A DNA stretch of 64,000 bases from Geoalkalibacter subterraneus (GTDB taxonomy: Bacteria; Desulfobacterota; Desulfuromonadia; Desulfuromonadales; Geoalkalibacteraceae), in NCBI RefSeq assembly GCF_000827125.1, contig NZ_CP010311.1:2480001-2544000 (forward strand), read 5' to 3'. The first letter of the stretch is position 1. Every line of letters starts with the position of its first letter. Below, piece after piece: positions 46,426 through 60,700 of the stretch. Position numbers and translations under genes: made by a program. The notes under the pieces are model-generated. The model was not told the DNA's origin and did no database searches. It saw nothing but the letters and a program-made list of their open reading frames with translations.

Positions 46426-46722
46426 CTACTTGAACTTCTTTTTGGCCGCTTCCCAGGCACCTTTCAGATCCTCCATCGCATGATCAATCCCTTCGCTGAT
46501 GGAGTGCCAGGCATCACCGCTTGATTTTTTAAGCTCATCAAGGCGGCCGCGCAGATCCTCGCGGCGTTTTTTCAAAGATTGAATCTGTTCATCAAGCTTG
46601 ATGCGCAGATCGGCATCGGCCTGCTTGGCTTTGGCTTTGAGCTGGTCGATGCGTGCCCCCCATTCATCAAGCTGGGCTTCTATTTTGCGCCGATAAATCT
46701 CTTTTTTTTCCTGGGTATCCAT
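46426..46722 (-). CDS. Small coiled-coil protein of unknown function
   Basis: 98 residues from the ATG at 46722, preceded by GGGAGGAAAAAG. Nearly the whole protein is a charged heptad-type coiled coil (IEAQLDEWGARIDQLKAKAK, then LDEQIQSLKKRREDLRGRLDEL), ending in an amphipathic helix with SISEGIDHAMEDLKGAW. It has no signal peptide or membrane segment. Similar small proteins are common in Desulfuromonadia without known role; a chaperone-like or membrane-associating function is only a guess. Confidence 0.75.
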   Translation of the reverse strand: MDTQEKKEIYRRKIEAQLDEWGARIDQLKAKAKQADADLRIKLDEQIQSLKKRREDLRGRLDELKKSSGDAWHSISEGIDHAMEDLKGAWEAAKKKFK

Positions 46723-46879
46723 CTTTTTCCTCCCAACAAAATCTCCAACAGTTTCGCTTCCTGACAACAATCCAGACGACTTGCACCGTGATGAGTAACA
46801 TGTGCGTCGCCTCTTCTTCGACATGTGGATCTTTTATGAGGACTTTACCTTAAGGAGGGAGAATTGCAAGCGGACAGGG

Positions 46880-48415
46880 TCAACTCCAGGGATCCCTTTC
46901 GCGGCGCGTTTCCCCTTCATTGGTGACACGGATCGCCGAGGCCCCTTCGACCGGGCAGCGGGTCTCGCAGATGCCGCAGCCGATGCAACGCTCGGCGACC
47001 ACCCGGGGAATTTTCAATGTGCGCACACCTTCAGCGGTATGCACCTTTTCCTCTTCAAAAACAATCGCCTTCTGGGGGGTGGGGCAATGCTCTTCGCACA
47101 CCAGGCATTCTTCTCGGCGTGCGAACGGCAGGCAGCGATCCTGGTCGAAGACGGCAATGCCCAGCACGAATTTTCTTTTCTCCTCGAGCGGCAGCAACTT
47201 CAACGCACCGGTCGGACAGACCTGACCGCACAGGGTGCAGTTGTATTCGCAATACCCGATGCGTGGGACCAGGCGCGGCGTCCATAACCCGACAGCCCCC
47301 GCTTCAAGCAGGGCCGGATGCAACGCGCCGCCGATGCAGACCTTCATGCACTCTCCGCAACGGATGCAGCGCCGCAGAAATTCATCTTCCGCCAGCGCCC
47401 CGGGAGGGCGCAGCAGATAAGAGCGGCGGTCAGCCTGGGCAGGGGCAGCACGCGCCACCGATGCCACCAGAACACCGGTGGCGACTGCCGCCATCAGGTC
47501 GCGGCGCGGCAGGTTGACACCGGCCGAAGGCTGAGGAGCCCCCCAGTGGAAACGGACCTTTTCCTGCGGGCAGAATCCGCTGCAATCGAGGCAGACCAGA
47601 CACTCATCCGGATGGCGGCGTCCGTCGTTATCCACCCCGCTGCGGCAATTCTGCAGACAGGAAGCGCACCCGGCGCAAGCGCTGGAAGGTTCTCGCTGCA
47701 ACAGCGCATAACGGGAGCAAAGCCCCAGCAGCGCCCCCAGGGGGCAGAGATTTTTGCACCAAAAGCGTCGCTCGATCTTCTCCAGGGCGATCAGAAGGAT
47801 AAAAACCGCCAGGGTCAACAGTCCCAGGGTGAAAACAGGCGGATGAAAAGCCAGAACGTGCTGGCGGAAAAAGTCATAGGAGCCGTTGACCAGGGATGAA
47901 ATCAGCGGCACATCATGCTGGTAGAAGAAATCGAACACCGCATTCATCATCAGATCGAACGCGGGATAGAGACTCAGGGTCAGGGTACGCAAAAAGATGC
48001 TGAGGGGATCGAACAGTCCGAACAACTGAAGACCGAAAAGGCCTGCGGCTGTAAGCGCAATCAGAAGCAGATATTTCAGACGGCGCCAGGACGGCTTGAC
48101 ATTTCTGCCGCGTCCGCGCCCGACCAGACGCCCCATGCCATCGAGGGTGGTCCCCAGCGGGCAGATCCAGCCGCAGAAAAAGCGTCCGAGAATGAAAGTC
48201 AGCGCAACAACTACCAGCGCCGGCCACAGCAGCCCCAGGCTGAACGCCCCCGGTGCCAAGGCATCGGCCAGTGCGGCCAGCGGATCGATGCGAAAAAGGA
48301 GGCTGACGGGGTATTGAAGAGAGTCCTGCCCGCGATACTCCGTGAGCAGAAAGAGAACGAAAAATCCGAGCAGGCAGAAGACCTGGACAAAAATCCGCAG
48401 AGATGAAAGGCGCAC
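46880..48415 (-). CDS. Membrane polyferredoxin (NapH/NapG-like fusion)
   Basis: 511 residues. Four to five membrane helices in the first 220 residues enclose two CxxxCP motifs (FCGWICPLG, CKNLCPLG). After CAGCASCLQNC and CLVCLDCSGFCP, a membrane-proximal export-like segment (LMAAVATGVLVASVARAAPAQA) precedes a NapG-like series: CIRCGECMKVC, CTLCGQVCPTGA, CLVCEEHCP and CIGCGICETRCPVEGA. Several [4Fe-4S] clusters should pass electrons between the quinone pool and a periplasmic partner. It follows the DUF362 gene by 3 bp and closes the operon. The fusion of NapH- and NapG-like parts is noteworthy. Confidence 0.88.
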   Translation of the reverse strand: MRLSSLRIFVQVFCLLGFFVLFLLTEYRGQDSLQYPVSLLFRIDPLAALADALAPGAFSLGLLWPALVVVALTFILGRFFCGWICPLGTTLDGMGRLVGRGRGRNVKPSWRRLKYLLLIALTAAGLFGLQLFGLFDPLSIFLRTLTLSLYPAFDLMMNAVFDFFYQHDVPLISSLVNGSYDFFRQHVLAFHPPVFTLGLLTLAVFILLIALEKIERRFWCKNLCPLGALLGLCSRYALLQREPSSACAGCASCLQNCRSGVDNDGRRHPDECLVCLDCSGFCPQEKVRFHWGAPQPSAGVNLPRRDLMAAVATGVLVASVARAAPAQADRRSYLLRPPGALAEDEFLRRCIRCGECMKVCIGGALHPALLEAGAVGLWTPRLVPRIGYCEYNCTLCGQVCPTGALKLLPLEEKRKFVLGIAVFDQDRCLPFARREECLVCEEHCPTPQKAIVFEEEKVHTAEGVRTLKIPRVVAERCIGCGICETRCPVEGASAIRVTNEGETRRERDPWS

Positions 48416-48418
48416 GGA

Positions 48419-49339
48419 TCAGACCTGTTCGACACGGGCGGGGTCCATCACGCCGAGTCCGCGCCGTGCCGCCACGGTAATCATGGGCAGGTCATGAGGC
48501 TCCAGGTCGAACAGGCGGGTAGCCTCACTGTCGGCGGCAACGATATCGGGGGAAGCGATCAGGGTGCGGGCCTCCCGCACATCCTCCAACCTTCCCCCCT
48601 GCGGGCCGTTGGCCACCAGAATGCGTGTGGCATCGATGACCGTCAGGTCCGAGTGGACCACGGTATTGATGTCCGCAAGGGCTTCCGGCAGACTGCGATG
48701 CAGCACCCCGCGATTGCCGCCGATGACGCCCATGGTATTTTTCAATCCGAGAGTGAGGGTGGAGAGGCCATGGTGTTTCGCCACGGGAACATTGATATAG
48801 CGATCGGCATCCAGCGCAGGCTGATAAAAGGGCCAGCGCTGCAGTTCCACGCCGGAGCGGATGGCAATTTCGCGATAGGCGCGGCGATCCATGTGAGAGA
48901 TGCGCACGCGGTCCGACTTCAAACCCCTGACCATCTCCTCGATGCCGCTGCTGACATAACAGCGACGCGGGTCGTTGCAGCTGCGGTCAAACAGATCAAC
49001 CGATTTGGCGCCGGCCTCAAGGCAATGCTCGATCAATGCCCGGACCACCAGCGGATGAGTATTGGCGGCGGTCTCCGGCGTCCGGTCCCAGCCGATGTTG
49101 GGCTTGATCACCACCGTTTCGCCGGGCCGCACAAAAGACTCCATCCCGCCGAGGGCGGAAAGCGTCTGCGAAACAAGCTCCTCGATATCGGAGGATTGAC
49201 GACGCGCCAACCGCACCTTCCCCTGTACAGGCGAGGCGAGCGCCGAGATGTCAAGCAGGGGGAGAGCGCCGAAGGCCGCACCGGCGAAGGCACAGCGCAG
49301 CGTATTGCGGATAAAGGCACGGCGATCGATGGAAGTCAT
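48419..49339 (-). CDS. Tat-exported DUF362 protein
   Basis: 306 residues. The N-terminus MTSIDRRAFIRNTLRCAFAG has a twin-arginine pattern (RRAFI) with a following hydrophobic stretch. The body shows ETVVIKPNIGWDRTPETAANTHP and VAKHHGLSTLTLGLKNTMGVIGG, DUF362 signatures. DUF362 domains occur next to ferredoxin domains; the biochemical role is unknown. Folded export by Tat suggests a cofactor is inserted before export. It is 35 bp downstream of the one-lobe OpuAC-like gene and 3 bp from the polyferredoxin, so it is likely that protein's periplasmic partner. Confidence 0.87.
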   Translation of the reverse strand: MTSIDRRAFIRNTLRCAFAGAAFGALPLLDISALASPVQGKVRLARRQSSDIEELVSQTLSALGGMESFVRPGETVVIKPNIGWDRTPETAANTHPLVVRALIEHCLEAGAKSVDLFDRSCNDPRRCYVSSGIEEMVRGLKSDRVRISHMDRRAYREIAIRSGVELQRWPFYQPALDADRYINVPVAKHHGLSTLTLGLKNTMGVIGGNRGVLHRSLPEALADINTVVHSDLTVIDATRILVANGPQGGRLEDVREARTLIASPDIVAADSEATRLFDLEPHDLPMITVAARRGLGVMDPARVEQV

Positions 49340-49373
49340 AGAATCCTTTCGCTGGGAAAATTAAACGACCCGG

Positions 49374-49979
49374 TCAGATCAGACGGTTGTCGCGCAGAAA
49401 ATCACGCGCCACATCCCGCATGGCACGTTCCTGGACCTGCCCATCCAGGGCACTTAGATTTTCGTTGTCGATCACACCGCCGAGCTTGTTGATCAAACGC
49501 GCCAGGGCAGGAAACTTTTTCAGCGTATCCTTGCGAACCACCGGTGCGACCTGATCGGCCACCTCAGCCGAAACTGAAGACGGATGTTCAAAACCGAAGG
49601 GCTGCAGCCAGATCAGGTTCAACTCTTTGTTGTAGCGCTCCTTGATCTGGTCGAACAAAGCCTGAGCGTCTTCCGCCGGGGCTTCCTGCAGCACGCGCAC
49701 CCAGCCTTCTCCGGTATAGCCGATGGTGATGTCGACCTCGGCACGCATCTGCGCCTGATGAGTCTCGTCGGCCCCCTCGAAACGCTCGATCTTGACGGTC
49801 GTCCCCGTGCGCTCGGAAATCAGAAGGGAAACAATCTCGGCCAGCAGCTGCTGCTGCGCACTCGGCGTGGTTCCGATCACAAGGGTTTTTCCCACGCAGG
49901 CGGTGGCTTGTCCGGCACCGGACGCCACAACGGAAACGGTTGCGAAAACGATCAGAAGCCAGGTTGCAATCCGGTTCAT
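49374..49979 (-). CDS. One-lobe OpuAC-like periplasmic binding protein
   Basis: 201 residues from the ATG at 49979 (GGGAGG upstream). A signal peptide ends near GQATA. KTLVIGTTPSAQQQLLAEIVSLL and DITIGYTGEGWVRVLQEAP match lobe 1 of glycine-betaine/choline-type binding proteins; NLIWLQPFGFEHPSS should then lead into lobe 2, but the sequence goes straight to APVVRKDTLKKFPALARLINKLGG and DVARDFLRDN, the closing part of lobe 1. About 90-120 residues of lobe 2 are absent in frame. It may bind ligand differently or act as a structural subunit. No ABC transporter is adjacent. Confidence 0.75.
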   Translation of the reverse strand: MNRIATWLLIVFATVSVVASGAGQATACVGKTLVIGTTPSAQQQLLAEIVSLLISERTGTTVKIERFEGADETHQAQMRAEVDITIGYTGEGWVRVLQEAPAEDAQALFDQIKERYNKELNLIWLQPFGFEHPSSVSAEVADQVAPVVRKDTLKKFPALARLINKLGGVIDNENLSALDGQVQERAMRDVARDFLRDNRLI

Positions 49980-50057
49980 CGAAAAAACCTCCCGGTAAGG
50001 ATTGATCATCTCCTGAATTCGCACAAAACCGAATCGGGAGAAACGGAATTCAGAAAT

Positions 50058-51440
50058 TCACCAGCGCGGCCCCGCATCGTTTACGGGCGCCATTCGCCAG
50101 GGATCGTACAGAACACGATCGACGGGACCACCCGCACCGACCATGCCTTCGCCATAGTCTACTGCGGCATAGTCGTCGCGGTCAAAAAAGATCGTCGGCT
50201 GCTCCGAAGACTCTGGTGAGCGGAGCGCTTTCGTGGCAGCCCCCCACCAGTTGTCGCGTGCGTCAACGTAATCCTGGCCCGCCAGCGGCCCATTCTGCTG
50301 CGGTGCCATTTGGCGCTCAGGGGCGCGTTCAGGGGCTCTTTCACCTCCAACCATGGCCCCCTGCGGCAGTGCTCCTGCGGCACTCTGCAGGGGGCCGAGC
50401 TTGATGGCGAGCGGATTGCCCAGGAAGTTATTGTCACGCACCAGCGGATAGGAACCAAGGTCACAGAAAAGCGCCACATCGTTGTCACGGAAGATATTGT
50501 AATTCACCAGGGGCGATGCGCGGCGCGTCAGGCGCAGGGCAGAATCATTTTTTTCAAACAGGTTGTATTGAAAAACTCCACCGGCAAACTGGTCGCCCGT
50601 TATTGCGGTGCGATTGTGCACAAACCGGTTGTCGGACAGCTGCGGCCGCGAAAAGGTGGTGCTGACCAGGGCCTCATCATTGTCTTCAAAATGATTGCCC
50701 GACAGGGCCGGCCCCTCGCCGCTGCGTTGGCAGACAACGGCCTGACCATTGCCGACAAAGCGATTTTCCCTGAGTACCCCCGGAAACTTGCGCATCCCCA
50801 GCACGCCCTGTCTATTTTCACTGAACCGGCAACTCTCAATGTGGACGACACTATGATTGGCGGCCTTCAGAGCCGCATCCCCGTGTCCCGAAAAGACCGT
50901 ATCACGAATAACCGCCCGAGACTTGAGTTCAAGGTCGATCCCCACCCCGTTGTTCAAAAAACGGTTTTCGAGAACATTTAATTTCGACTCACGCACGGCC
51001 TTGAGCGCCAGGGTACAACTTCGAAACACCGCCTGATTCACCAGCGCCTCGGCTCCCCGAAGCAAGAGCGCGGTTTCGGCAGAAGAAAAATGCGCATGGT
51101 GGATTTCGGCAGGGGGCGCCCCCTGTTCCACCGTAATCCCCTGCCACCCGGCAACCGTTTCAAAACGTACCGGGTTGTCCGCGGTGCCCTGTATACGCAG
51201 CCTGCCTTCGATCTTCCAGGCCGCATCCGGCTTCTCGATGCGGACCACCGTTCCCGGCTGGAGAGACAACTCCGCCGTGGGCGGCACCCGCAAAGCGCTT
51301 TCCATCACAACCTCGCCGGACCAGTGAACCGCCCCTTCCAGCCGCTGTTCGGTCGCGGAAAAAGCAGGTTGCGCATGGAACACCCCCATAACCAGGGCTG
51401 TCAGCAAATGAAGGCGGATGAATCCTTGGGGCAGCGCCAT
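50058..51440 (-). CDS. NosD-like right-handed beta-helix periplasmic protein
   Basis: 460 residues with a signal peptide (LLTALVMGVFHAQPAFS). It has a run of parallel beta-helix coils with the pattern NxFxxNxxAI (ENRFLNNGVGIDL, ENRFVGNGQAVVC, DNRFVHNRTAITG, YNLFEKNDSALRL, YNIFRDNDVALFC, DNNFLGNPLAIKL). A linker with ERAPERAPERQ precedes DARDNWWGAAT and YDPW, the usual end cap. NosD-type proteins deliver copper to nitrous oxide reductase, but there is no nosZ or nosFY here. The ATG overlaps the propeller stop (TGATG), so the two are coupled. Confidence 0.85.
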   Translation of the reverse strand: MALPQGFIRLHLLTALVMGVFHAQPAFSATEQRLEGAVHWSGEVVMESALRVPPTAELSLQPGTVVRIEKPDAAWKIEGRLRIQGTADNPVRFETVAGWQGITVEQGAPPAEIHHAHFSSAETALLLRGAEALVNQAVFRSCTLALKAVRESKLNVLENRFLNNGVGIDLELKSRAVIRDTVFSGHGDAALKAANHSVVHIESCRFSENRQGVLGMRKFPGVLRENRFVGNGQAVVCQRSGEGPALSGNHFEDNDEALVSTTFSRPQLSDNRFVHNRTAITGDQFAGGVFQYNLFEKNDSALRLTRRASPLVNYNIFRDNDVALFCDLGSYPLVRDNNFLGNPLAIKLGPLQSAAGALPQGAMVGGERAPERAPERQMAPQQNGPLAGQDYVDARDNWWGAATKALRSPESSEQPTIFFDRDDYAAVDYGEGMVGAGGPVDRVLYDPWRMAPVNDAGPRW

Positions 51441-53335
51441 CAGAAAACCTCGCTTGAAACTCCAATTGCGACGGAGGGGGATATCCGGAAAAGATGCACG
51501 ACGCCATCCCGTACACCCACCGCCAGGAATTCCCCCCGGACGAGGGGCCCGCCCTGAATGGCAGCGGGCAGATCCTGTTTGACAAGAAGGCCCCCGCTGT
51601 CGGCGTTGAACACCTGCAGCGTTCCCTCGTTATCCCCCACATAAACCCGTCCGCCATGAACCACCGGGGTGGCGTAACCAGCGCCGGACAGGTGAGCCCG
51701 CCATAGAACCGAGCCGTTACGCACGTCGATTTTCCATAGACTCCCGCCTGCGGTGGCCACGAACATTGAGTCACCGGTTAGCACCGGTGCGGCGTAAAAG
51801 CAGACTTCACCCAGTTCTTTCCGCCAGAGAACCGCGCCGTCATGAGCCAGGGCGGTCAAAACGCCGTCACGAGTCAGAAAAACCGGACCGCCGTCGCTTA
51901 TAGCGGCAGGAGTCAGGACCGCGGCTCCCAGTCCGGAGCGATAAAGGATTTCTCCCGCAGGACCGATCTTGAATACCTCGCCGTGGACATTTCCAATCCA
52001 CAACGCTTCTGCGTCCAGAGAAGGCGCCGCCCTCAACGCGGCCCCCAGGTCGAGAGACCAGCGGGGGTCGCCGTTGCCCAGTGATAATGCGTAAAGCGTG
52101 CCATTCCACGTGGGCACCAGCAGCAGGTCGCCGCGCGTCACCAACGCGCCCTGCCGATGATCGTCGGCTGCGGATGGGGGATAGGACCACTGCCACAGAA
52201 TCTCTCCGTTGTCACGGTCAAGGGCGTAAACGCGCCGCCCCCAGGTCTGCACGAACAGTCGATCGTCCTGCGCCGCAGGGGCTGCGTCGATGACATCCCC
52301 CAGCGGCCGTGTCCATAGAACACTCCCGTTCAGGTCAAGCGCCCGCAGGGTACCGTCCCAAGAGCCGGCATACAGAGTGTCGTCATCGTCCGCAGAGAGC
52401 GCATCCACGAAGCCTCCCGTTTCCCGCTGCCACAGGGAAGTCAGCGACAGGTCGTCGCGTGGGCCGCTGCCCTCTATCCACTGACCTGCCGGAGCGATGC
52501 CGACCGTGCCGATTTGCGGATCCTCTCCCCGGTCGTGAATGCGGGAGGCGGCTTCTGCCGCCTCAGCTCCCTGCCACCAGTTATGGGAAAGCGTCAGATG
52601 GCCGGTGAAAAAATCTCCCAAACGCAGATGCAGATCATTGTCGTAAAAATTGTTGTCCTGAATCAGGGAGTCCTGATCCTTTTCAAAAAGAAAGATCCCC
52701 ACCCGGTTATAGCGCAGGATATTTTTTCGGATCTCAACCCGCGAGTCACGGAAATTGATCCCTTTGCCGATATTGTGCTCGATCAGATTGTTGCGCAGGG
52801 TAAAACGCGACCTTCCGAGGCGGGTTCCATCAATATTTTCAGCCAGAACGCAGTCCTCGACCACCCCCTTGGTGAAATGGGCATGGAGGCCGTGCGCGGA
52901 ATGGCGAATCTCGCAATAGCGCAGTTCGATGCGCGGCGAAAAATCAACATGGATTTCGAGCCAGTCGCCCGGGCGGGGTGCGGCTTCAGCACTGTGAAAG
53001 CGGATGGGCGCCGCAGGCGTTCCCACGGCCACAAGTTCGCCATCGATCATCAGTCTGGCGTCGCCAAGGCCATCCTGATCTGCGTCCCGACGCACGAAGG
53101 CAATATCGGTTCCCGGGGCGATGGTCAAGGTCTTTCCCTTGCTCAAATGCACCGTGCCGTCGATGACAATCGAGTCGTTCCAGAAGGTGTCCTCGGTCAG
53201 ATGGACGTCCCCCGACAAGCGCACCGGCTCGCGGGAAGCCGTTTCAGGCCGACTCGACAAGTCCGGAGAGACCGGCTGCGGCAGGCATCCGGCAGAAACA
53301 ACAAGCAGTACGATCAGCACAAACGTCCTTACCAC
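51440..53335 (-). CDS. Lipoprotein fusing a beta-helix and a PQQ-type beta-propeller
   Basis: 631 residues. A lipoprotein signal (LLVVSAGC) is followed by a beta-helix half (NLIEHNIGKGINFRDS, NILRYNRVGIFLF, DNNFYDNDLHLRLGDF, ending LSHNWWQG). The second half is a BamB/PQQ-like propeller with blades such as RVYALDRDNGEILWQWSY, TLYALSLGNGDPRWSLDLG, SLWKIDVRNGSVLWRAHLS and TLQVFNADSGG. No PQQ-dehydrogenase catalytic residues are evident, so binding or assembly is likelier than catalysis. The GTG start overlaps the next upstream gene by 7 bp. Confidence 0.85.
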   Translation of the reverse strand: MVRTFVLIVLLVVSAGCLPQPVSPDLSSRPETASREPVRLSGDVHLTEDTFWNDSIVIDGTVHLSKGKTLTIAPGTDIAFVRRDADQDGLGDARLMIDGELVAVGTPAAPIRFHSAEAAPRPGDWLEIHVDFSPRIELRYCEIRHSAHGLHAHFTKGVVEDCVLAENIDGTRLGRSRFTLRNNLIEHNIGKGINFRDSRVEIRKNILRYNRVGIFLFEKDQDSLIQDNNFYDNDLHLRLGDFFTGHLTLSHNWWQGAEAAEAASRIHDRGEDPQIGTVGIAPAGQWIEGSGPRDDLSLTSLWQRETGGFVDALSADDDDTLYAGSWDGTLRALDLNGSVLWTRPLGDVIDAAPAAQDDRLFVQTWGRRVYALDRDNGEILWQWSYPPSAADDHRQGALVTRGDLLLVPTWNGTLYALSLGNGDPRWSLDLGAALRAAPSLDAEALWIGNVHGEVFKIGPAGEILYRSGLGAAVLTPAAISDGGPVFLTRDGVLTALAHDGAVLWRKELGEVCFYAAPVLTGDSMFVATAGGSLWKIDVRNGSVLWRAHLSGAGYATPVVHGGRVYVGDNEGTLQVFNADSGGLLVKQDLPAAIQGGPLVRGEFLAVGVRDGVVHLFRISPSVAIGVSSEVF

Positions 53336-54381
53336 AATGCCTCCACCTTGATGTCGATCCCCTGCAGATGATCGCCCGTTTCGACCTTGAGCGCCTCACC
53401 ATCCGCTCCCACGTAATCACCCATCAGTTCACCTGAAACGGGCTCGCCGCCGATGTTGCTGCGCGCACGCAGATAATAGCGTCCAGGCTCGGGGAACGAG
53501 AGCACATAGGCGCCATCGGCATCGGTGGGCTGGGATACGAACAATGGACGATCGAGCATGCGCGGGTTGTCATAGAGAAGCACCCGCAACCCCGCAACAG
53601 GCCGCCCTTGCTGGTCGACAACCCGACCGGAGAGGCTGATGTCGCCGAAGAGATGATCTGCCTGCTCGACCACCTTGTCCGGCACTTCCTGCAGAGAAAT
53701 GGCCGCTCTTTGAACCTGACCGGTTTCGACCCGCAGGGGGTTGTCATTCCAATAGCCGATAAAATCCCCGGCACGCAGCGGCCCCACCATGGAGCCGTCC
53801 CGGCGCAGTCGCGCCACCAGGTAATAGGTTCCGACCGGCAGATGAGCCTCGAACATTCCTTCGTCATCCGTTGGCCCAAGCACGGCAAACCCCATCCCCT
53901 TGAACCCGCGGGAGGGGTCGAGGTAGACATGAATCATCGTCCCCGCCACGGGCTTGCCGCGATGGACGACACGGCCAAGAATCCCCTGTGAAATCTCCGG
54001 CAGCAGGTCAAACCCGCCGGACGAAATCCCTTTCACACCAAAGGTAACTCCGGCGAGACCTGCAGAGGACACGCGCACCGGGTTGCGCCCATAGTAACCG
54101 AAACGCCCCTCCCCACGCGCCAGCAGATAATAATCTCCGCCCTGCGGCAGGGTGAGTGTGAAGTGTCCCTGTTCATCCGTGGGTGCGCTGCGATGGGGGG
54201 CTTCGCCGGCCAGGGCCAGAGAGCCCGCGGGCCAGGCCTCGACGTGCATCCCGGAAACCGGCAGCCGCTTATCATCGGCCACCTTGCCCGAGAGTTCCAC
54301 AGAGGAAGCCGCGCCGGATTGCGGTACGCAAAACGAAAAAGCGAAACAGATCAGGGCGAGAAAAACGGGAATTGAAGGCAT
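53329..54381 (-). CDS. Exported protein with tandem carboxypeptidase-regulatory-like domains
   Basis: 350 residues with a signal peptide (VFLALICFAFSFCVPQSGA). Three beta-sandwich repeats are visible: SGKVADDKRLPVSGMHVEAW ... TDEQGHFTLTLPQGGDYYLLARG; GRVVHRGKPVAGTMIHVYLD ... TDDEGMFEAHLPVGTYYLVARL; and GRVVDQQGRPVAGLRVLLYD ... TDADGAYVLSFPEPGRYYLRAR. Each has the GxV...PVxG / DxxGxY...PxGxYYL pattern of CarboxypepD_reg/CnaB-like modules. Such modules bind proteins or carbohydrate. It lies between the permease and the propeller lipoprotein and probably forms an envelope complex with them. Confidence 0.83.
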   Translation of the reverse strand: MPSIPVFLALICFAFSFCVPQSGAASSVELSGKVADDKRLPVSGMHVEAWPAGSLALAGEAPHRSAPTDEQGHFTLTLPQGGDYYLLARGEGRFGYYGRNPVRVSSAGLAGVTFGVKGISSGGFDLLPEISQGILGRVVHRGKPVAGTMIHVYLDPSRGFKGMGFAVLGPTDDEGMFEAHLPVGTYYLVARLRRDGSMVGPLRAGDFIGYWNDNPLRVETGQVQRAAISLQEVPDKVVEQADHLFGDISLSGRVVDQQGRPVAGLRVLLYDNPRMLDRPLFVSQPTDADGAYVLSFPEPGRYYLRARSNIGGEPVSGELMGDYVGADGEALKVETGDHLQGIDIKVEALW

Positions 54382-54476
54382 CAGGCAAATACTCCCGGGA
54401 TGTGGCAGAAAATCGTCAACTCGACCGTTGCGGGCGACAGACCCCGGTCAGGCAACCAACAAGGTCGAACCAGCGA

Positions 54477-55433
54477 TCAGAGGGTCAGCTGATAAATCCA
54501 GCCCACTCCGATTGACGCGCACAGGCCGACCGCCAGAAAGACTCCAACCACGCGGCGATGAAACATCCCCCACAGGGCAATGATCGCAGGCAGGCTGGTG
54601 ACCGGGCCGGCAAGCAGCAGAGTCAGCGCCGCCCCCGGATCGATGCCGCGCTCGATGAGTCCGGCCAGGATCGGGATGAGGGGGATCTGATTGCTTGGCA
54701 GCGGCAGGCCGATCAGGGATGCGGCCACCAGGGACTGAATGCCGGGCTGTCCCACCAGTACGGTGATCCAGGAGATCGGCACAAAGGTCACCAGCAGCGC
54801 CTCCAGCACTATCGCCAGCAGCAGAAACTTCCCGGTGAACAAGGCCGCATCGACGGTGCGGTCAAAAATAAACCGGGCCCGGTTCGCACGAGGCTCAACC
54901 GTCATGGTTTTAAGCTTGATCCCATGGGCCTTTCCCACTTCATGGGCGCTGGCCAGCGTGCCATCCTCCCGGTAGACGGGCTTGAGCCGCACCAGGTCGC
55001 TGTTGAGCCAGCCGCGACTCTCCAGCATCAGCGTAACGGCTCCGGCACACAGGCCGAGCACGCCGGAACCGATGATTTTCCAGGTCGCCAGATCGCTGCC
55101 CAGCCCGCGCCAGGTCAGCAGCAGCGCATCGGGCCCCATGGTCGGAGAGGTTGCCAGCAAGGCCATCAGCGGCGGCAGCGGTGTCCCCATCAGCGCCAGA
55201 GAAATCACCACGGGCAGAATGCCGCAGGCGCACAGCGGAGAGACCATGCCGACCGCAATGGCGATCAGGATCCCCCAGAATCCGCTGCGGTTGACCGCAT
55301 GGCGGATTTTGAGATCGAGTTTGTACCCCTTGATGATGCCGACCAGCAGGCAGGCCAGCAGAAAAAACCACCACATGCGGCGGATTTCTTCGTCGATTAC
55401 CGACAGAAATTGGGTCAGGGCTGAATCAGGCAC
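54477..55433 (-). CDS. ArsP/DUF318-type permease
   Basis: 318 residues, about eight hydrophobic segments. GMVSPLCACGILPVVISLALMG and LLATSPTMGPDALLLTW are the characteristic permease motifs; the CAC cysteines are thought to bind the substrate in As- or metal-exporting relatives. A central hydrophilic loop (VRLKPVYREDGTLASAHEVGKAHGIK) separates two halves, and LPLPSNQIPLIPILAG is in the second. The substrate (arsenical, metal or metalloid) cannot be decided. It is 38 bp downstream of the AAA gene on the same strand. Confidence 0.83.
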   Translation of the reverse strand: MPDSALTQFLSVIDEEIRRMWWFFLLACLLVGIIKGYKLDLKIRHAVNRSGFWGILIAIAVGMVSPLCACGILPVVISLALMGTPLPPLMALLATSPTMGPDALLLTWRGLGSDLATWKIIGSGVLGLCAGAVTLMLESRGWLNSDLVRLKPVYREDGTLASAHEVGKAHGIKLKTMTVEPRANRARFIFDRTVDAALFTGKFLLLAIVLEALLVTFVPISWITVLVGQPGIQSLVAASLIGLPLPSNQIPLIPILAGLIERGIDPGAALTLLLAGPVTSLPAIIALWGMFHRRVVGVFLAVGLCASIGVGWIYQLTL

Positions 55434-55471
55434 GGTCGATCTCGCATCCGGGGGCAGAGGTCGGGGTAAGG

Positions 55472-56353
55472 TCAGAATTCATAGTGATGGGGACAGTCCA
55501 TCGTGCGGATTCGGTGATACTTCTCCGTCATGTCGGGGGTCAGAAAAGGGCGGATCTCTTCCAGGGCTTTCGTGAAATGAGCCATGGTCACAATGCGGGC
55601 GTCTTCCTTGATGGCATTGACTGTCGCACGCTTGCACAGGCTTTCGATATCCCATCCGACATAGCCTTCAGCCGCCTCGGCCAGGGCGCGCCGGTCGACG
55701 TCATCCGCCAGATTGGGCATGCGCTTCAGATAGATTTCAAGCATCCCCTCGCGATCATCCGCAGTCGGCGGAGGGACAAACACCTTGCGGTTAAAGCGCT
55801 TTTTCTCCTTGATCAGCGCCTGATCCACCGTATCGATGCGATAGCAGGACCCCATCAGCGCAACATTGGCCACACTGTTAATGCGGTCGACCTGTTCGAT
55901 AAAGAGCCGCGACAGGTCCTTGTCGGCAAAGGTCGGCGGAATCGCCCGAAAGTTTCCCGGCCCCCACTCGTAATCACAGCCCGCACGGGGGGCAAGCCAC
56001 TCGCAATCCGAGACAAACAGCACGCAGGGCGCTTCGTGCACGGCGCAGTCAAAAGCCTCCACCAGCTCTCCGCCCTTACCCAGCATCTCCTGCCCGGAGA
56101 TATAGACGAAGGACACTCCCGCCTCGCGCGCGCAAGCCTCGGCCAGCATGGTAATGCCGGTCCCCAGAGGGCCCCACATCATCACTCCGGCGGGCAGACC
56201 GAGATTGTGCAGAGAGATCAATCCCGGCTTCATCAGCGGCAGGCAGACCATTTCGCGCAGAGTCTGCTTGACTTCCGAATATCCGCCGATATCGTCCCAC
56301 TCCAGAAGGGGATCACGAACTTCATAAAAGATATTGCTCAGTTTGCGATGCAT
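55472..56353 (-). CDS. AAA-family protein with degenerate Walker motifs (pseudo-ATPase)
   Basis: About 293 residues. The architecture is that of a Cdc48/FtsH-type AAA module: WDDIGGYSEVKQTLREMVCLPL, a P-loop, VDRINSVANVALMGSCYRIDTVDQALIKEKKRFNRKVFVPPP (quoted in pieces) and the sensor-2 helical domain (YVGWDIESLCKRATVNAIKEDARIV). But the P-loop reads GPLGTGIT, with Ile where the Lys is needed, and Walker B reads LFVSDCEW instead of DE. ATP hydrolysis is therefore unlikely. I chose the ATG at 56353; a TTG five codons earlier is possible. It starts the permease operon, with the 56510 gene 157 bp upstream. Confidence 0.82.
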   Translation of the reverse strand: MHRKLSNIFYEVRDPLLEWDDIGGYSEVKQTLREMVCLPLMKPGLISLHNLGLPAGVMMWGPLGTGITMLAEACAREAGVSFVYISGQEMLGKGGELVEAFDCAVHEAPCVLFVSDCEWLAPRAGCDYEWGPGNFRAIPPTFADKDLSRLFIEQVDRINSVANVALMGSCYRIDTVDQALIKEKKRFNRKVFVPPPTADDREGMLEIYLKRMPNLADDVDRRALAEAAEGYVGWDIESLCKRATVNAIKEDARIVTMAHFTKALEEIRPFLTPDMTEKYHRIRTMDCPHHYEF

Positions 56354-56509
56354 GGCGTTTGCAACCAATCCTTTCGCTTGAGATGGCTTGGATAAAAACA
56401 GTAAAAGGGAATCGACGCCTTCAAGACGCCTTCAACGAAGGCGCCGACCATAGATACGCTGCGTGGAGACCGTCGGCAACAACAGTCACAGTCAGCAACT
56501 TACATGCCA

Positions 56510-56830
56510 TCAAAGGTCATTCAATAACCGATAAATCTGCTGCTCAAGCTCCCAGACTTCAGCCGCCCGGTCAGGTTCTCCTCCTTCGTCAAGCAGCAGC
56601 CGCGCACGATCAAGCACGAAATGGCTTTTAAGCAGTATGGGGGTGAGCTTCTCCTCCAGGCGGATGCGGGGAATCTCTCCCACGGCCTCGTCAAAAGGCG
56701 CCAACTCGCCGAGAGCTTTTTCGAACAACTGCGGCACGCGCTCTGTTTCCGCGGAGCCTTCGCCCTGAAAGCCCTGCGAAAAGGCCAGAATATCCTGATA
56801 CAATTTGCGATATCGCTCGGAAATCGTCAT
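56510..56830 (-). CDS. Small helical protein of unknown function
   Basis: 106 residues. RYRKLYQDILAFSQGFQGEG, KALGELAPFDEAVGEIPRI and WELEQQIYRLLNDL suggest an all-helical soluble protein without cysteines, signal or membrane segment. I do not recognise it. It precedes the AAA gene by 157 bp on the same strand; an inverted GACGCCTTC/GAAGGCG hairpin (about 56414-56444) lies between, so it may be cotranscribed or partly terminated there. Confidence 0.62.
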   Translation of the reverse strand: MTISERYRKLYQDILAFSQGFQGEGSAETERVPQLFEKALGELAPFDEAVGEIPRIRLEEKLTPILLKSHFVLDRARLLLDEGGEPDRAAEVWELEQQIYRLLNDL

Positions 56831-56992: not shown

Positions 56993-58048
56993 CCTGATTA
57001 GCACTGATCTTCCGCTAAGCGAAGCCAGCGCTCGGACCGTTTGCCTGTGTTGACTGCCGCGAAGGTCATACGCGTGAGCAAAGTTGCAAGATTGAAGCGG
57101 CGGTTGAATCGGTACTGATACTCACCGAGATAACGGTGAGCATATTTCTCGAAGTCGAACGCATGGTACGTCCCGTTAATCGCATTCTTGAGGTTGCCCA
57201 AAATGGTATTGACCCAGGAAAAGCACTCCATATCCGTGCTCTTTCGGCCTGGCCCGACAATTTCACGTTGTTGAGTGCAGCCAGACTCGGTAATCGACCT
57301 GAAGCACCAAAGGCCGTCAGAGACCACGGTCGTTGCCGGAACCAGTGAGCGATCAGCCCAGGTTTTGATCTCAGCACGGCTGAACGCTTTGACCCTGGAG
57401 AAAACAACATACAAGGGATGATGCTTCTCGTTTGTCTGACCAGCGGCAATAAAGGGGACTTTGTTCTCGGACCCACGGTCGGCCTTGCCGCCCGAATTTT
57501 CGCCTCCAAGGTAGGCGTCATCCATTTCGACACGGCCGCAGAGCCGGATGGTGCTTTCGCCCTCATACATGACCTGCATGAGCTTGTGCTTCATGCGCCA
57601 GGAGGCCGGATAACTCAGGCCAACAAGGCGCCGCAGTTCCAGGATCGAGACGTTGTTTTTGGTCTGGCTGAGAAAATACATCGCTTGGAACCATTTGGTC
57701 AGTGGCAACTTTGTCGAATGAAAAATCGTGGCTGCGGTCAGTGTTGTCTGAGTTCGACAAACGCGACACTGGAAGACTTTCACGCGACCACGCCGAGACG
57801 AAGAATGCTGCTGCTCTTGGCACTTCGGGCACTGAAAGCCTCGGGGCCAACGAGCTTCTTCAACAATCGCCTCACACTGGGGCTCAGTGCCATAATCGGC
57901 AAGGAACTGGTTCAGACTCATCCCGGCTTGAAACTGGATTCGATTCATTTTCACGGCATGCCTCCTTGAGGGAAATGCCATGAATTTAATGCCCCGCCGT
58001 GTCACAATATGTCAATCTGTGGCCGGCAGAAGATTCGTGCTAATCAGG
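56993..58048 (-). mobile_element. IS1595-family insertion sequence (about 1.06 kb)
   Basis: The left end cctgattagcactgatcttc and the complement of the right end, cctgattagcacgaatcttc, form terminal inverted repeats of about 20 bp with two mismatches. They enclose one transposase gene on the minus strand whose stop lies inside the left repeat. No 8-bp target duplication is visible; the flanks are both AT runs (aaaaatat on the left, tttatttt on the right). It separates the unassigned operon from the phosphonate operon. Confidence 0.82.
56998..57948 (-). CDS. IS1595-family (ISXO2-like) transposase
   Basis: 316 residues from the ATG at 57948. A zinc ribbon (CPKCQEQQHSSSRRGRVKVFQCRVCRTQTT, two CxxC) is followed by the DDE-type core: VEMDDAYLGGENSGGKADRG (the first Asp), VVSDGLWCF (the second) and FSWVNTILGNLKNAINGTYH, where Asn/Lys substitute for the usual Glu in this family. 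The C-terminus has YLGEYQYRFNRRFNLATLL. No frameshift is seen, so it may still be active. Confidence 0.92.
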   Translation of the reverse strand: MNRIQFQAGMSLNQFLADYGTEPQCEAIVEEARWPRGFQCPKCQEQQHSSSRRGRVKVFQCRVCRTQTTLTAATIFHSTKLPLTKWFQAMYFLSQTKNNVSILELRRLVGLSYPASWRMKHKLMQVMYEGESTIRLCGRVEMDDAYLGGENSGGKADRGSENKVPFIAAGQTNEKHHPLYVVFSRVKAFSRAEIKTWADRSLVPATTVVSDGLWCFRSITESGCTQQREIVGPGRKSTDMECFSWVNTILGNLKNAINGTYHAFDFEKYAHRYLGEYQYRFNRRFNLATLLTRMTFAAVNTGKRSERWLRLAEDQC

Positions 58049-58192: not shown

Positions 58193-58194
58193 AT
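58186..58194 (+). promoter_or_regulatory. Candidate PhnF half-operator over the phnF start
   Basis: TGTCTAGAT at the phnF start codon is identical to the first nine bases of the palindrome before phnG (61722-61739). A GntR/UTRA repressor binding here would autoregulate phnF. Only a half-site is clear; the rest (GTCTG) is a direct repeat. Inference. Confidence 0.4.
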
Positions 58195-58924
58195 GTCTGT
58201 ATATCAAATTGAAAAAGGCGCGGGCTGCCAGCCTGCCTATCGCCAGATCAGCGAAAAGCTGACGAAAGAGGTTCAAAGCCTATATCAGCCGGGCGATCTG
58301 TTGCCGCCCGAAAATGCACTGGCGTCGCTGTTTGGGGTCAACCGGCACACACTCCGCAAAGCGGTCGATGAACTGGTAATCGACGGGCTGGTACAGCGTC
58401 AACATGGCAAGGGGATCTATGTCCTCGATACTGCGATTAAGTATTCCATCGGCTCACGAACCAGGTTCACCGAAGCGCTTGAGGCTCAAGGATATTCTAC
58501 CGAAAGCCAGGTGCTGGATAAAAAGGTCATCTCCGCCAGGGGGAAAGTCGCGAAACGGCTTGGAATTGCCGAAGGAGAGCAGGTGATCTATATCGAAAGC
58601 CTGCGTAAGGTTGAAGGCAGGCCATTCTGCCTGATCTCTCACTATCTGCCGCTTGCCATCTGCCCTGAGCTGATCGAGAACTACGACAGCGGTTCGTTAC
58701 ATAAATTTCTGGAAAAATCCTGCGCCATAAACCTCACCCGTCAGGAAAGTCTGGTGAGCACGACTCTGCCTGATGCTGACGAAGGGAAGAAGCTGCAGAT
58801 GCCTCTGCGGATACCGATCCTGAAAGTCAAAAGTATCAACATCGATACCAAGACCCAAATACCTGTCGAATATGCGGTGACGCGGTTTCGTGGTGATTCC
58901 GCAGAACTGAGCTTTAAACCGTAA
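58193..58924 (+). CDS. phnF: Phosphonate operon regulator PhnF (GntR family, UTRA domain)
   Basis: 243 residues. The winged helix shows QISEKLTKEVQSLYQPGDLLPPENALASLFGVNRHTLRKAVDELVIDGLVQRQHGKGIYV (key parts: LPPENALASLFGVNRHTLRKA), followed by a UTRA effector-binding domain (RTRFTEALEAQGYSTESQVLDK and FCLISHYLPLAICP). It likely represses the phn genes and responds to phosphate state or a phosphonate intermediate. GGAG lies 8 bp before the ATG. It heads the operon; phnD follows after 23 bp. Confidence 0.92.
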   Translation: MSVYQIEKGAGCQPAYRQISEKLTKEVQSLYQPGDLLPPENALASLFGVNRHTLRKAVDELVIDGLVQRQHGKGIYVLDTAIKYSIGSRTRFTEALEAQGYSTESQVLDKKVISARGKVAKRLGIAEGEQVIYIESLRKVEGRPFCLISHYLPLAICPELIENYDSGSLHKFLEKSCAINLTRQESLVSTTLPDADEGKKLQMPLRIPILKVKSINIDTKTQIPVEYAVTRFRGDSAELSFKP

Positions 58925-58947
58925 AAAATCGAATTGGAGAAAAGAAG

Positions 58948-59868
58948 ATGAAAGCGAGAGCCCTTATCGGCCTTGTCCTGTTGATTTCCTGCCTCGCTGG
59001 AGGGGTATTTGCCGCTAACCTTCCAGATGGGTCTAAACAACGGCCCTTGCGCGTACTCATGGTGCCTGCTGATACCGGCACAAATGACATTACCCAGGAC
59101 TATGCACCGGTTTTTAACGGTATCACTAAAAATTACGGAATCCACTTTGACCTCAAGGCGGGCAACAGCTATGCGGCTGTCGTCGAAGGGATGTGTAACG
59201 ATCAGGTCGATATCGCCTGGTTTGGCGCATCGACCTATGGGCTAGCCAACGAAAAATGCGGTGTTGAACTGCTGGCCGTTGATGTCACCCAGGGGGATTC
59301 GTCCTACTATTCAGGGGTCTTTACCCGCAAGGGGAATGACATCAAGTCGCTTGCCGATCTGAAGGGAAAAAGCATGGCCTTTGGCAGTCCCAATTCAACC
59401 TCATCCTTTAACTTCCCGGTTGCAATGTTGCTCGCCGGGGGAGTTGATCCAACAACTGATCTGAGCAAAATCATCATTGCCGGCTCCCACTCTGCTTCAA
59501 TCGCTGCTCTTGCCGAAGGCAAAGTTGACGCTGCTGCAGCCTCTTACAATTCCTTCGAAAAAGCCGTCAAAAATGGCGCCATCGATCCGGGGAAATTTGC
59601 TCCTCTCGCCAAGTCACAACCGATTCCCAACCCGCCTCTGGCCATGAATAAGGGGCTGGACAGCGAACTGAAGAAGAAGCTGCGTAAAGCCTTCAGTGAG
59701 ATTCACACCAAGATTGATCCCTCAAAAATTCGTGGTTACGGAGGGAAAAAAGTCGACCGCTACGATGCTGACTTTGACGAGCAGAAAATTATCGCCGCTC
59801 TTTCCAAGCTGAGTGCCGTGACCAAGCAGGTCAAGGAAAGCATGCTTGACAAGGCAGGAACGCGTTAA
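58948..59868 (+). CDS. phnD: Phosphonate ABC transporter substrate-binding protein
   Basis: 306 residues with a signal peptide (MKARALIGLVLLISCLAGGVFA). LRVLMVPADTGTNDITQDYAPVF, VDIAWFGASTYGLANEKCGVELLAV, YYSGVFTRKGNDIKSLADLKGKSMAFGSPNSTS (quoted in part) and IAALAEGKVDAAAASYNSF match PhnD. It captures phosphonates in the periplasm for PhnCE. Ribosome site TTGGAGAAAAGA. A hairpin follows in the gap before phnC, a usual feature where the binding protein is made in excess. Confidence 0.95.
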   Translation: MKARALIGLVLLISCLAGGVFAANLPDGSKQRPLRVLMVPADTGTNDITQDYAPVFNGITKNYGIHFDLKAGNSYAAVVEGMCNDQVDIAWFGASTYGLANEKCGVELLAVDVTQGDSSYYSGVFTRKGNDIKSLADLKGKSMAFGSPNSTSSFNFPVAMLLAGGVDPTTDLSKIIIAGSHSASIAALAEGKVDAAAASYNSFEKAVKNGAIDPGKFAPLAKSQPIPNPPLAMNKGLDSELKKKLRKAFSEIHTKIDPSKIRGYGGKKVDRYDADFDEQKIIAALSKLSAVTKQVKESMLDKAGTR

Positions 59869-59886
59869 AGGCAAATATAAAGGGGT

Positions 59887-59910
59887 GGTGGAGAGACATT
59901 TCTCTCCATC
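59887..59910 (+). repeat. Intercistronic hairpin between phnD and phnC
   Basis: ggtggagaga-catt-tctctccatc forms a 10-bp stem (one G-T) with a 4-nt loop, 19 bp after the phnD stop. It has no T run, so it is more likely to stabilise the phnD message than to terminate. Confidence 0.6.
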
Positions 59911-59932
59911 GCCGCGACAAAAGGAGTTTGAA

Positions 59933-60700
59933 ATGTTACGTTTTGAATCTGTAAACCGCACTTACGCCGATGGAACCCGAGCGATTAAAGACGTCTCGCT
60001 GCACATTAAAAAAGGCGAGTTTTGCGTATTGCTGGGGCCTTCCGGCGCGGGAAAATCAACGTTGATGAATATGGTTAACGGAATGGTCGAGCCATCAAGC
60101 GGCCATGTTCATATCGGCGATTTGGAACTCAACAGGAAAAACCGGGTCAAGATTCAGCGCCGAATCGGCATGATTCACCAGCAACTGCACCTGGTTCCTC
60201 GGCTGTCCGTTTTACACAATGTCCTCGCGGGCCTGCTTCCGGACGTCAATTTCTGGCGCAGCCTGGTCAAGTCCTTTCCATTTAAAGACCAGCGGCGCGC
60301 GTTTCAACTGATGCAGGAAGTTGGTCTCGAAGAAAAGCATCTCAAGCGCAGAGCATCGGATCTTTCAGGAGGGCAACAACAACGGGTGGCGATTGCGCGT
60401 GCCTTTATTTCAAACCCGGAAGTTGTGCTCGCAGACGAACCTGTTGCCAGCCTCGATCCCGCCATGAGTCGCAGTGTGCTGAAAAGCTTGAAATCGGCAG
60501 CGCAAAGCCATGGCGCGACGGTGATATGCACCCTCCATCAGCTTGACTATGCCCTTGAGTTTGCCGACCGTATCGTCGCCTTGCGAGAAGGAGAAGTTTT
60601 TTTTGACGGTCACCCGAGTGACCTCGATCTGGCGACTCAGGATCAACTCTACGACATGACTCGCCCTGCACCGCCAAGACAGGAGAAGGTTGCAGCGTGA
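59933..60700 (+). CDS. phnC: Phosphonate ABC transporter ATP-binding protein
   Basis: 255 residues from the ATG at 59933, which follows AAAAGGAGTTTGA. Walker A is GPSGAGKST, the Q-loop region is RIGMIHQQLHLVPRLSVLHNVL, the signature LSGGQQQRVAIARAF and Walker B VVLADEPVASLD. It powers phosphonate import with PhnE and PhnD. Its stop overlaps phnE by 4 bp. The upstream frame extends to 59846 but overlaps phnD and has no ribosome site. Confidence 0.96.
   Translation: MLRFESVNRTYADGTRAIKDVSLHIKKGEFCVLLGPSGAGKSTLMNMVNGMVEPSSGHVHIGDLELNRKNRVKIQRRIGMIHQQLHLVPRLSVLHNVLAGLLPDVNFWRSLVKSFPFKDQRRAFQLMQEVGLEEKHLKRRASDLSGGQQQRVAIARAFISNPEVVLADEPVASLDPAMSRSVLKSLKSAAQSHGATVICTLHQLDYALEFADRIVALREGEVFFDGHPSDLDLATQDQLYDMTRPAPPRQEKVAA

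Follow-up and report, generated by a model that had tools for sequence, protein, structure and literature searches.

Closest described systems

GeoRSP is a cassette named by NCBIfam, whose names cover a PqqD-family protein (TIGR04302), a radical SAM enzyme (rSAM; TIGR04303) and a SPASM protein (TIGR04304); no function for it is described in open-licence PubMed Central (PMC) full text, where the name occurs only in an unrelated paper. The present analysis concerns an operon of Geoalkalibacter subterraneus encoded on the minus strand within positions 46880-56830 of a 64,000-nucleotide stretch (the window; contig NZ_CP010311.1, positions 2,480,001 to 2,544,000), which features a pseudo-AAA protein, an ArsP-type permease, a single-lobed binding protein (half-OpuAC), beta-helix and propeller proteins, and a polyferredoxin. 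It is proposed, with a probability of roughly 0.4, that this operon belongs, as one of three, to a sigma-54-controlled envelope system around the GeoRSP cassette; the linkage and co-regulation of the three operons are in themselves highly probable. GeoRSP is present in the G. subterraneus genome and in 15 of the 17 sampled genomes with pseudo-AAA, and neighbours common to its loci are half-OpuAC, beta-helix, CPD (carboxypeptidase-regulatory-like repeats), PhnD, TPR and YedE genes; the named set covers three proteins only, however, leaving pseudo-AAA, FmdE, ArsP, half-OpuAC and the third operon outside it, and some GeoRSP genomes have no pseudo-AAA.

Two further systems invite comparison. The SAO (Sec-assisted organometallic) system has, to our knowledge, no radical SAM enzyme. 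The Nos accessory system (NosR, NosD) has beta-helix proteins and a membrane polyferredoxin in common with the operon; the operon differs in that it contains no nosZ, nosF or nosY, misses the NosD cut-off and has different core partners. The SAO system is alike in its ArsP-type permease related to SaoE, its substrate-binding proteins and its selenium theme (PMC13188914); the window permease, however, scores far below the SaoE cut-off, and half-OpuAC gave no SaoB or SaoX match among 18 NCBIfam families when 31 members were searched to E 10, a search in which HMMER filters drop most weak matches. Searches of open-licence PMC papers found no description of the combined gene set, in keeping with an earlier sequence-only reading of the window, whose author knew of no characterised system with these genes. 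The system is considered new as a described entity, though nearly every protein has a known domain or family; only a 106-aa (amino acid) and a 445-aa protein are without one.

The operon in the window

Nine open reading frames (ORFs) lie at 46880-56830, all on the minus strand when the ORF list is checked, just as the sequence-only reading had it, and eight of its nine domain labels are backed by Pfam; the 106-aa ORF has no Pfam or NCBIfam match. The junctions it described are also found: the CPD and propeller genes overlap by 7 bp (53329-53335), the propeller and NosD-like genes overlap by 1 bp at 51440 (TGATG), and 3 bp (48416-48418) separate the DUF362 and polyferredoxin genes. The nine ORFs had been taken as one operon; the sequence instead supports an operon of eight genes, from the pseudo-AAA gene to the polyferredoxin gene, with a predicted promoter between the 106-aa ORF and the AAA gene. 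The features, by window coordinates, are:

56494..56509, minus strand: predicted sigma-54-type -24/-12 promoter, TGGCATGTAAGTTGCT, directly after the stop of the 106-aa ORF and 156 nucleotides (nt) upstream of the AAA ATG
55472..56353, minus strand: pseudo-AAA protein with a CDC48-like fold (PF00004 and PF17862, AAA and AAA_lid_3; alignment; structure model)
54477..55433, minus strand: ArsP_1-family permease with an invariant CxCG (PF03773)
53329..54381, minus strand: CPD protein, probably secreted (PF13620 in two stretches; signal peptide by eye)
51440..53335, minus strand: putative lipoprotein with an N-terminal beta-helix and a C-terminal BamB/PQQ-like propeller (PF05048, PF13360; TIGR03300 below cut-off)
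50058..51440, minus strand: NosD-like right-handed beta-helix protein (PF13229, PF05048)
49374..49979, minus strand: half-OpuAC, which corresponds to one lobe of a ProX/OpuAC-type binding protein and carries an invariant CVG (PF04069, alignment, structure model)
48419..49339, minus strand: DUF362 protein with an RR-containing N-terminus, Tat-like by eye (PF04015, 161 bits)
46880..48415, minus strand: fused NapH-like membrane and NapG-like polyferredoxin protein (Fer4 domains; NapH and NapG models below cut-off)

The 106-aa ORF (56510-56830, minus strand) is probably a neighbour outside the operon, because the -24/-12 site separates it from the AAA gene and other genes intervene in several relatives (e.g., loci L022, L028, L032 and L035). 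Counting duplicates and short loci, 28 of 72 loci encode the 106-aa protein, either near AAA or next to thiamine genes, and in many Desulfuromonadales loci its gene adjoins thiamine-synthesis genes (named by eye). In place of the listed TTG/GTG starts, the AAA gene starts at ATG 56353, the MH start being conserved in the alignment, and the likely start of half-OpuAC, again judged from an alignment, is Met16 of its listed ORF, at 49979.

Conserved gene order and linkage to GeoRSP

A scan of GTDB genome contigs yielded 55 pseudo-AAA loci, mostly from Desulfuromonadales and Deltaproteobacteria but also from Deferrisomatales, Nitrospirae, Rokubacteriota and one Actinomycetota metagenome-assembled genome (MAG). 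Among those with enough downstream sequence, 34 of 44 have ArsP at most 2.5 kb after the AAA gene and 35 of 38 have a beta-helix/propeller gene at most 6 kb after it, hence the gene order is far beyond chance; the corresponding figures are 34 of 48 for an FmdE-like gene (1.5 kb), 12 of 36 for half-OpuAC (8 kb) and 5 of 35 for DUF362 (10 kb). Loci L024, L056, L058 and L059 keep the order AAA-FmdE-ArsP-CPD-propeller-OpuAC-DUF362-Fdx (Fdx, polyferredoxin); L024 is from Geothermobacter hydrogeniphilus, a cultured relative with the same operon, and the order recurs in distant deltaproteobacterial MAGs, with nos genes absent from the operon. A conserved order of at least six genes without nos genes, which had earlier been named as support for a distinct system, is thus found in these four loci. 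Many loci of Desulfuromonadales differ in having extra genes for FG-GAP (VCBS) proteins and for membrane proteins that resemble spermidine synthase. As a further link to sulfur, L055, L058, L059, L092, L096, L097, L098 and L099 carry a gene that by eye is cysteine-synthase-like, on the downstream side of the AAA/half-OpuAC cluster. The locus maps rest on conservation, tblastn and hidden Markov models (HMMs); in GeoRSP-type loci the genes carry the label of their best BLAST match, which is in some cases wrong (ResB-like ORFs are shown as 'PQQ').

Co-occurrence was counted in a sample of 297 genomes of the phylum, 17 of which carry pseudo-AAA (E <= 1e-40). The species of this sample overlap with those of the GTDB scan (L024 and L091 look near-identical; the contigs of L056, L058 and L059 match contigs of G200, G223 and G285 in length), therefore the two locus sets are kept apart when co-occurrence, promoters and adjacency are counted. 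The half-OpuAC search matched 33 genomes; ten matches, weak and covering the N-terminal part only, look like ordinary binding proteins and were dropped, and with both query parts covered half-OpuAC is present in 17/17 pseudo-AAA genomes as compared to 6/280 others (Fisher p 5e-23, uncorrected for relatedness). TIGR04303 matches all 297 genomes at E 0.001; the rSAM was counted at a minimum of 379 bits, a score reached in 21 genomes (next score 193), 15 of them above the curated cut-off, and at this level it is present in 15/17 pseudo-AAA genomes and 6/280 others (Fisher p ~1e-18, uncorrected for relatedness). The earlier description of an unassigned envelope and redox gene set holds, and the set is coherent and conserved; it does not appear to be a nine-gene operon that stands alone, but one arm of a larger system with GeoRSP, YedE, PhnD and the third operon.

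The two gene sets also meet physically. Genome G027 features a single locus of less than 24 kb that carries, on one strand, Fdx, CPD, AAA, half-OpuAC, ResB, beta-helix, DUF362, CPD, PhnD, YedE, ArsP, PqqD, rSAM and SPASM genes; in L069 and L071 the AAA, half-OpuAC, ResB, DUF362, CPD, PhnD, YedE and ArsP genes run in one direction until the sequence ends inside ArsP. Four genomes of the same class without pseudo-AAA (G025, G063, G153 and G287), probably Geobacter relatives, have half-OpuAC with beta-helix, CPD, ResB-like, PhnD-like, TPR, YedE and GeoRSP genes. Locus L105 scores above cut-off for TIGR04303 (615 bits), TIGR04302 (165), TIGR04304 (339) and the YedE family TIGR04112 (410). The TPR protein beside PhnD ends in GGC[EDG]-COOH in the 22/22 distinct loci in which this TPR gene was found, generic TPR matches and two duplicate stretches being left out of the count.

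GeoRSP operon and third operon of G. subterraneus

The GeoRSP locus of G. subterraneus (L112; G000:C1:1401001-1421000) lies outside the window. It encodes a sigma-54 response regulator (L112:2706-4094), a half-OpuAC paralogue (ACYG), two beta-helix proteins, PhnD, TPR, YedE, PqqD, rSAM and SPASM proteins, and an aminotransferase-V enzyme that resembles cysteine desulfurases. The rSAM (G000:C1:1410857-1411831) scores 448 bits with TIGR04303, above the cut-off of 400, and YedE scores 390 bits with TIGR04112 (cut-off 200), a family named as a putative selenium transporter by NCBIfam. The half-OpuAC paralogue has no Pfam match of its own; such paralogues display an N-terminal C[FY]G in 12/12 sequences. 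A second YedE-like stretch (G000:C1:40711-41175, L110) scores 58.7 bits with TIGR04112 and contains one in-frame TGA, which may indicate either a selenoprotein or a broken gene.

The third operon encodes an EB_dh-domain lipoprotein (a domain of heme-b type), a CPD protein, a HEAT protein, a NapH-like protein, a 445-aa protein without a family match, and a protein of 836 aa in which MFS and spermidine-synthase-like parts are fused. In L118, L119, L120 and L124 the first four have homologues immediately upstream of the half-OpuAC-paralogue/PhnD/YedE/GeoRSP run; homologues of the last two (40% and 58% identity) are found in the pseudo-AAA locus L022, in which the propeller gene is followed by two ORFs of similar length.

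Promoter

The pattern TGGYAYGN4TTGCT, which was picked once the sites of the window and of L112 were known, has a single match in the window, TGGCATGTAAGTTGCT (0.06 expected; at least one match in 6 of 100 shuffles), and six in the 3.72-Mb genome as compared to two for the reversed control. The L112 site, TGGTACGTTGCTTGCT, lies in front of the half-OpuAC paralogue gene (at its probable start). Another of the six matches, at C1:627601, is followed 89 nt later by the earliest start that the EB_dh/HEAT/NapH-like operon could have, and this one independent promoter-based prediction, that of the third operon, is borne out by synteny, because its homologues adjoin the GeoRSP run (L118, L119, L120 and L124) and lie in L022. 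Of the remaining three genome matches, one precedes a pilM-like operon, one is close to a carB-like gene and one falls within a repeat array (names by eye). The array (G000:C1:1362001-1372000, L137), with frames FNPRPRTGGD and SIHAPARGAT, is probably of CRISPR type. A looser pattern, TGGC-N7-TGC, has 20 matches in the window and was rejected as uninformative.

Across relatives, a -24/-12 site was sought before the AAA gene in 51 of the 55 loci, namely those with 400 nt of upstream sequence; four were dropped, as the contig start was too near the gene. Sites that agree with the consensus at 10 or more of its 12 positions are present in 36/51 loci, and at 11 or more in 23/51, as compared to 1.4% and 0.2% of shuffled controls and to 6/86 and 0/86 of the stretches before ArsP and propeller genes. 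Four Nitrospirae loci whose AAA is 61-63% identical to that of the window do carry a 10/12 site. In GeoRSP-type loci, sites at the same place after the regulator are found in L114 (10/12) and L115 (11/12), with weaker ones in L119, L120 and L124 (9 or 10); L112, L114, L115, L119, L120 and L124 encode regulators that contain a GAFTGA motif.

Pseudo-AAA protein

Canonical AAA ATPases have the Walker A motif GPPGTGKT and an Asp-Glu pair in Walker B. The window protein instead displays GPLGTGIT at Walker A and Ser-Asp at the Asp-Glu position, as the sequence-only reading had recognised, and ends in DCPHHYEF (Cys292, His294 and His295 when the 298-aa ORF is numbered). In an alignment of 27 of 72 sequences (mean column identity 70%), Walker A GPLGxG[IMV]T, Walker B SD and the tail DCPHHYxF are invariant save x. 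The wider count covers 69 distinct sequences of 83, five of which are cut before the tail and two before Walker A: the Walker A lysine is absent in 67/67 sequences covering the motif (66 GPLGxG[IMV]T, one GPLGVSIT), Ser-Asp is present in 68/68, and the DCPHHYxF C-terminus in 64/64 complete sequences.

The structure model (predicted local distance difference test, pLDDT, 92.6) matches the CDC48/p97-type domain, with Z 28.6 and a root mean square deviation (rmsd) of 2.8 Å over 272 residues to p97. The fold is therefore common to CDC48/p97 AAA ATPases; however, pseudo-AAA is single-domain, has both the Walker A lysine and the Walker B Asp-Glu replaced family-wide, and adds the DCPHHYxF tail. Three longer AAA relatives are encoded elsewhere in the genome (open frames of 605-706 aa, 30-34% identity). 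The strong conservation of a dead AAA protein, along with its Cys-His-His tail, suggests an adaptor role, either structural or in metal binding. An anti-phage function was considered and rejected; PADLOC gave only generic AAA matches to IetA, of at most 39 bits.

Half-OpuAC

Half-OpuAC is matched by PF04069 (72 bits) over part of the profile. Its CVG near the probable mature N-terminus (signal peptide by eye) is invariant in 31/31 sequences, as are ERTG and the C-terminal F209, L210 and I216; this alignment takes 31 of 33 sequences, two duplicates being left out, and mixes both locus sets. The structure model (pLDDT 89.9) matches ProX, OpuAC and EgtU with Z 23.6-25.8 and rmsd 1.3-2.2 Å among the top 36 matches, in which 162-172 residues align to binding proteins of ~265-294 residues; the highest identity is to EgtU of H. 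pylori, an ergothioneine-binding protein (36%). The OpuAC profile match is split into the N-terminal and C-terminal parts of binding proteins. Due to this short aligned span and split match, half-OpuAC is considered to keep lobe 1 and to be missing the second. It thus has the lobe 1 fold in common with ProX/OpuAC/EgtU, but appears to differ in the loss of lobe 2, the invariant N-terminal Cys-Val-Gly and an operon without an ABC transporter. A ResB-like gene directly follows half-OpuAC in L061, L064, L068, L069, L071 and G027:C11, and is fused to a beta-helix in L069.

Other operon proteins

The remaining proteins were aligned as length-filtered distinct sequences, with residue counts that mix both locus sets. 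The ArsP permease matches PF03773 over residues 7-315 (138.4 bits; gathering score 32.3), and C68 and C70 of its CxCG, M20, M99 and M177 are invariant (37 aligned of 62 collected). In the propeller lipoprotein C17 is present in 90% of sequences and H151 and H153 in 98-100% (42 of 74); the FmdE protein of relatives conserves HGHxC and a second Cys (33 of 47). R6 and R7 of the DUF362 protein are invariant (7 of 9). DUF362 is in the same Pfam clan as the lactate-racemase domain DUF2088 (PMC11770544); a catalytic role for DUF362 is therefore possible. The cysteine motifs of the polyferredoxin are invariant (8 of 12); this NapH/NapG-like fusion is probably an electron conduit from quinol to the periplasm.

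Proposed system and alternatives

The terminal or paired soft ligands that recur in this gene set (AAA CPHH, ArsP CxCG, FmdE HGHxC, half-OpuAC C[VFY]G, TPR GGC[EDG]), together with YedE, the desulfurase-like enzyme and the rSAM/PqqD pair, favour a thiol or chalcogen relay coupled to maturation of an envelope product as the function of the three-operon system; this assignment is tentative, being possible rather than likely. The PhnD-like protein, the membrane-anchored TPR protein with its GG-Cys-Glu end and YedE would bring a sulfur or selenium species inward, and the aminotransferase-V (cysteine-desulfurase-like) enzyme and the rSAM/PqqD/SPASM cassette would use this species to make a modified peptide or cofactor. 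Pseudo-AAA, through its CPHH tail and with FmdE where present, may act as a non-hydrolysing adaptor at the ArsP permease; ArsP, through CxCG, would pass the product or a soft-metal/thiol ligand outward, to be received by single-lobed half-OpuAC at its N-terminal Cys. The beta-helix, propeller and CPD proteins would form an envelope scaffold or be clients, with quinol electrons supplied by the NapGH-like, DUF362 and heme-b-like proteins. The fullest version of this proposal, held with still less confidence and on balance doubtful, is that the three operons form a new envelope maturation machine in which the product of an rSAM/PqqD cassette fed by a selenium- or sulfur-specific importer would travel by the AAA adaptor with its metal-binding tail, ArsP and terminal cysteines (of the one-lobed binding protein and the TPR protein) to beta-helix/propeller proteins for surface electron transfer.

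Several observations weigh against the three-operon system. With respect to the promoter, 15 of the 51 loci have no 10/12 site, and in 14 of these (all but L050) AAA is at most 70% identical to that of the window; the L118 site reaches only 7/12 and that of L119 9/12; L101 and L103-L105, from genomes of the same class without pseudo-AAA, reach at most 8/12 in the tested stretches; and the 21 GeoRSP-type loci contain four matches of at least 11/12, only 2 of which are at the expected place. With respect to co-occurrence, the rSAM counts fall to 10/17 pseudo-AAA genomes and 5/280 others at the curated TIGR04303 cut-off; GeoRSP at 379 bits is absent from two of the 17, G200 (81% complete) and G247 (96%); and six genomes have GeoRSP without pseudo-AAA. 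G249 (L106) carries PhnD, TPR, YedE and half-OpuAC without a GeoRSP rSAM of at least 379 bits, therefore the TPR tail need not be an rSAM substrate; L100 and L121 gave no TPR match, although both carry PhnD. In L112 itself, PqqD scores 99.4 bits with TIGR04302 (cut-off 100) and SPASM, whose gene adjoins the rSAM gene, 99.3 bits with TIGR04304 (cut-off 300), each being the best family.

FmdE is a further point. An HMM that detects FmdE elsewhere found none in the window, which is the better evidence; a search of the whole genome with a single family member (E 0.001) also gave none, but it had no control and so does not prove absence. L031 and L033 are also without FmdE, and most relatives carry the FmdE-like gene. 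The L101 FmdE resembles the classical zinc-ribbon form and is therefore not used to tie FmdE to GeoRSP. No substrate, product or precursor peptide has been identified. The selenium gene selD scores above cut-off in 22/23 system genomes but also in 17/17 others, and so gives no evidence on selenium either way.

An unlikely alternative, though the strongest of those considered, is efflux of soft metal(loid)s or organometals, in which FmdE and the pseudo-AAA tail would bind the ion or organometal, ArsP would expel it and the envelope proteins would sequester it. The permease does belong to ArsP_1, its nearest named relatives being SaoE and SO_0444 (NF033936, Cu/Zn efflux); soft ligands are conserved in ArsP, FmdE, the AAA tail and half-OpuAC; and L105 contains a NicO-type Ni/Co exporter. 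Neither named family is reached, however (SaoE 98 bits, cut-off 325; SO_0444 89.7, cut-off 300), 10 of 44 loci have no ArsP gene in the 2.5 kb downstream of AAA (two of these have ArsP further on), and a radical SAM cassette and a putative selenium importer would be superfluous for efflux. A search of the genome for SaoL (MerB-like) gave no match, and no control gave one either. Metal(loid) handling, offered by the earlier reading as part of one interpretation, is one possibility among several.

Less probable than efflux is a NosRD-like assembly, in which the beta-helix proteins would be metal or sulfide chaperones and the NapGH-like protein a reductant for building a metal-sulfur centre in a periplasmic enzyme. 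NosD and Beta_helix domains occur in two proteins, and the polyferredoxin has NapH/NapG similarity and a short NosR match. The resemblance to NosRD-type systems that had been pointed out on first inspection holds at the domain level only, as the NosD model (TIGR04247) gives 39.6 bits where the cut-off is 300. The operon ORFs include no ABC ATPase/permease pair of the NosFY kind, and a search of the genome for nosZ with nos_propeller (PF18764) gave no match, with no control giving one either; the absence of nos genes noted earlier holds for the operon ORFs and for the operon of conserved relatives. The most constant partner of AAA, moreover, is half-OpuAC and not an enzyme.

It is improbable that GeoRSP modifies a tetrapyrrole and that the system makes, exports and inserts an unusual heme. 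After its own family, the GeoRSP rSAM scores next best with the heme b synthase AhbD (207 bits), and the NirJ family scores well; ResB-like genes occur in several loci, and the third operon has its EB_dh domain. The model of the mycofactocin maturase, from a peptide-modifying family, scores equally, however, at 206 bits; a PqqD-family protein adjoins the rSAM gene, and such proteins are typical of peptide maturation; no other heme-pathway genes were seen in the operons read. Ordinary clustering of unrelated envelope genes without a common function is highly improbable, for although gene content varies between loci (VCBS, spermidine-synthase-like and CPD copies are gained and lost), the order is conserved over distant genomes, co-occurrence is 17/17 and a rare promoter is common to the operons.

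Neighbouring genes

Directly downstream of the polyferredoxin gene lies a gene for a 132-aa sll1863-family stress-response protein (46426-46824, minus strand; NF052504, 103 bits); none was seen downstream of the polyferredoxin gene in L024, L090 and L091. On the other side, a 335-aa ORF (56998-58005, minus strand) that resembles an IS1595-type transposase (by eye) lies between the operon and a PhnD-like gene set, at a place where relatives often carry thiamine genes. In that set (58193-61698, plus strand) the gene of a GntR-like regulator comes first and ABC genes resembling PhnD, PhnC and PhnE come after it (by eye); its PhnD shares a sequence cluster with the PhnD of pseudo-AAA and GeoRSP loci.

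Significance

Through this analysis the GeoRSP cassette and a set of envelope genes that had no assignment become parts of a single proposed system of ~25 genes, which is open to testing and has one type of promoter, in a bacterium that reduces metals. The AAA protein, dead family-wide, and the one-lobed binding protein are useful entry points, and cultured hosts are available in Geoalkalibacter subterraneus Red1, which is fully sequenced, and Geothermobacter hydrogeniphilus.

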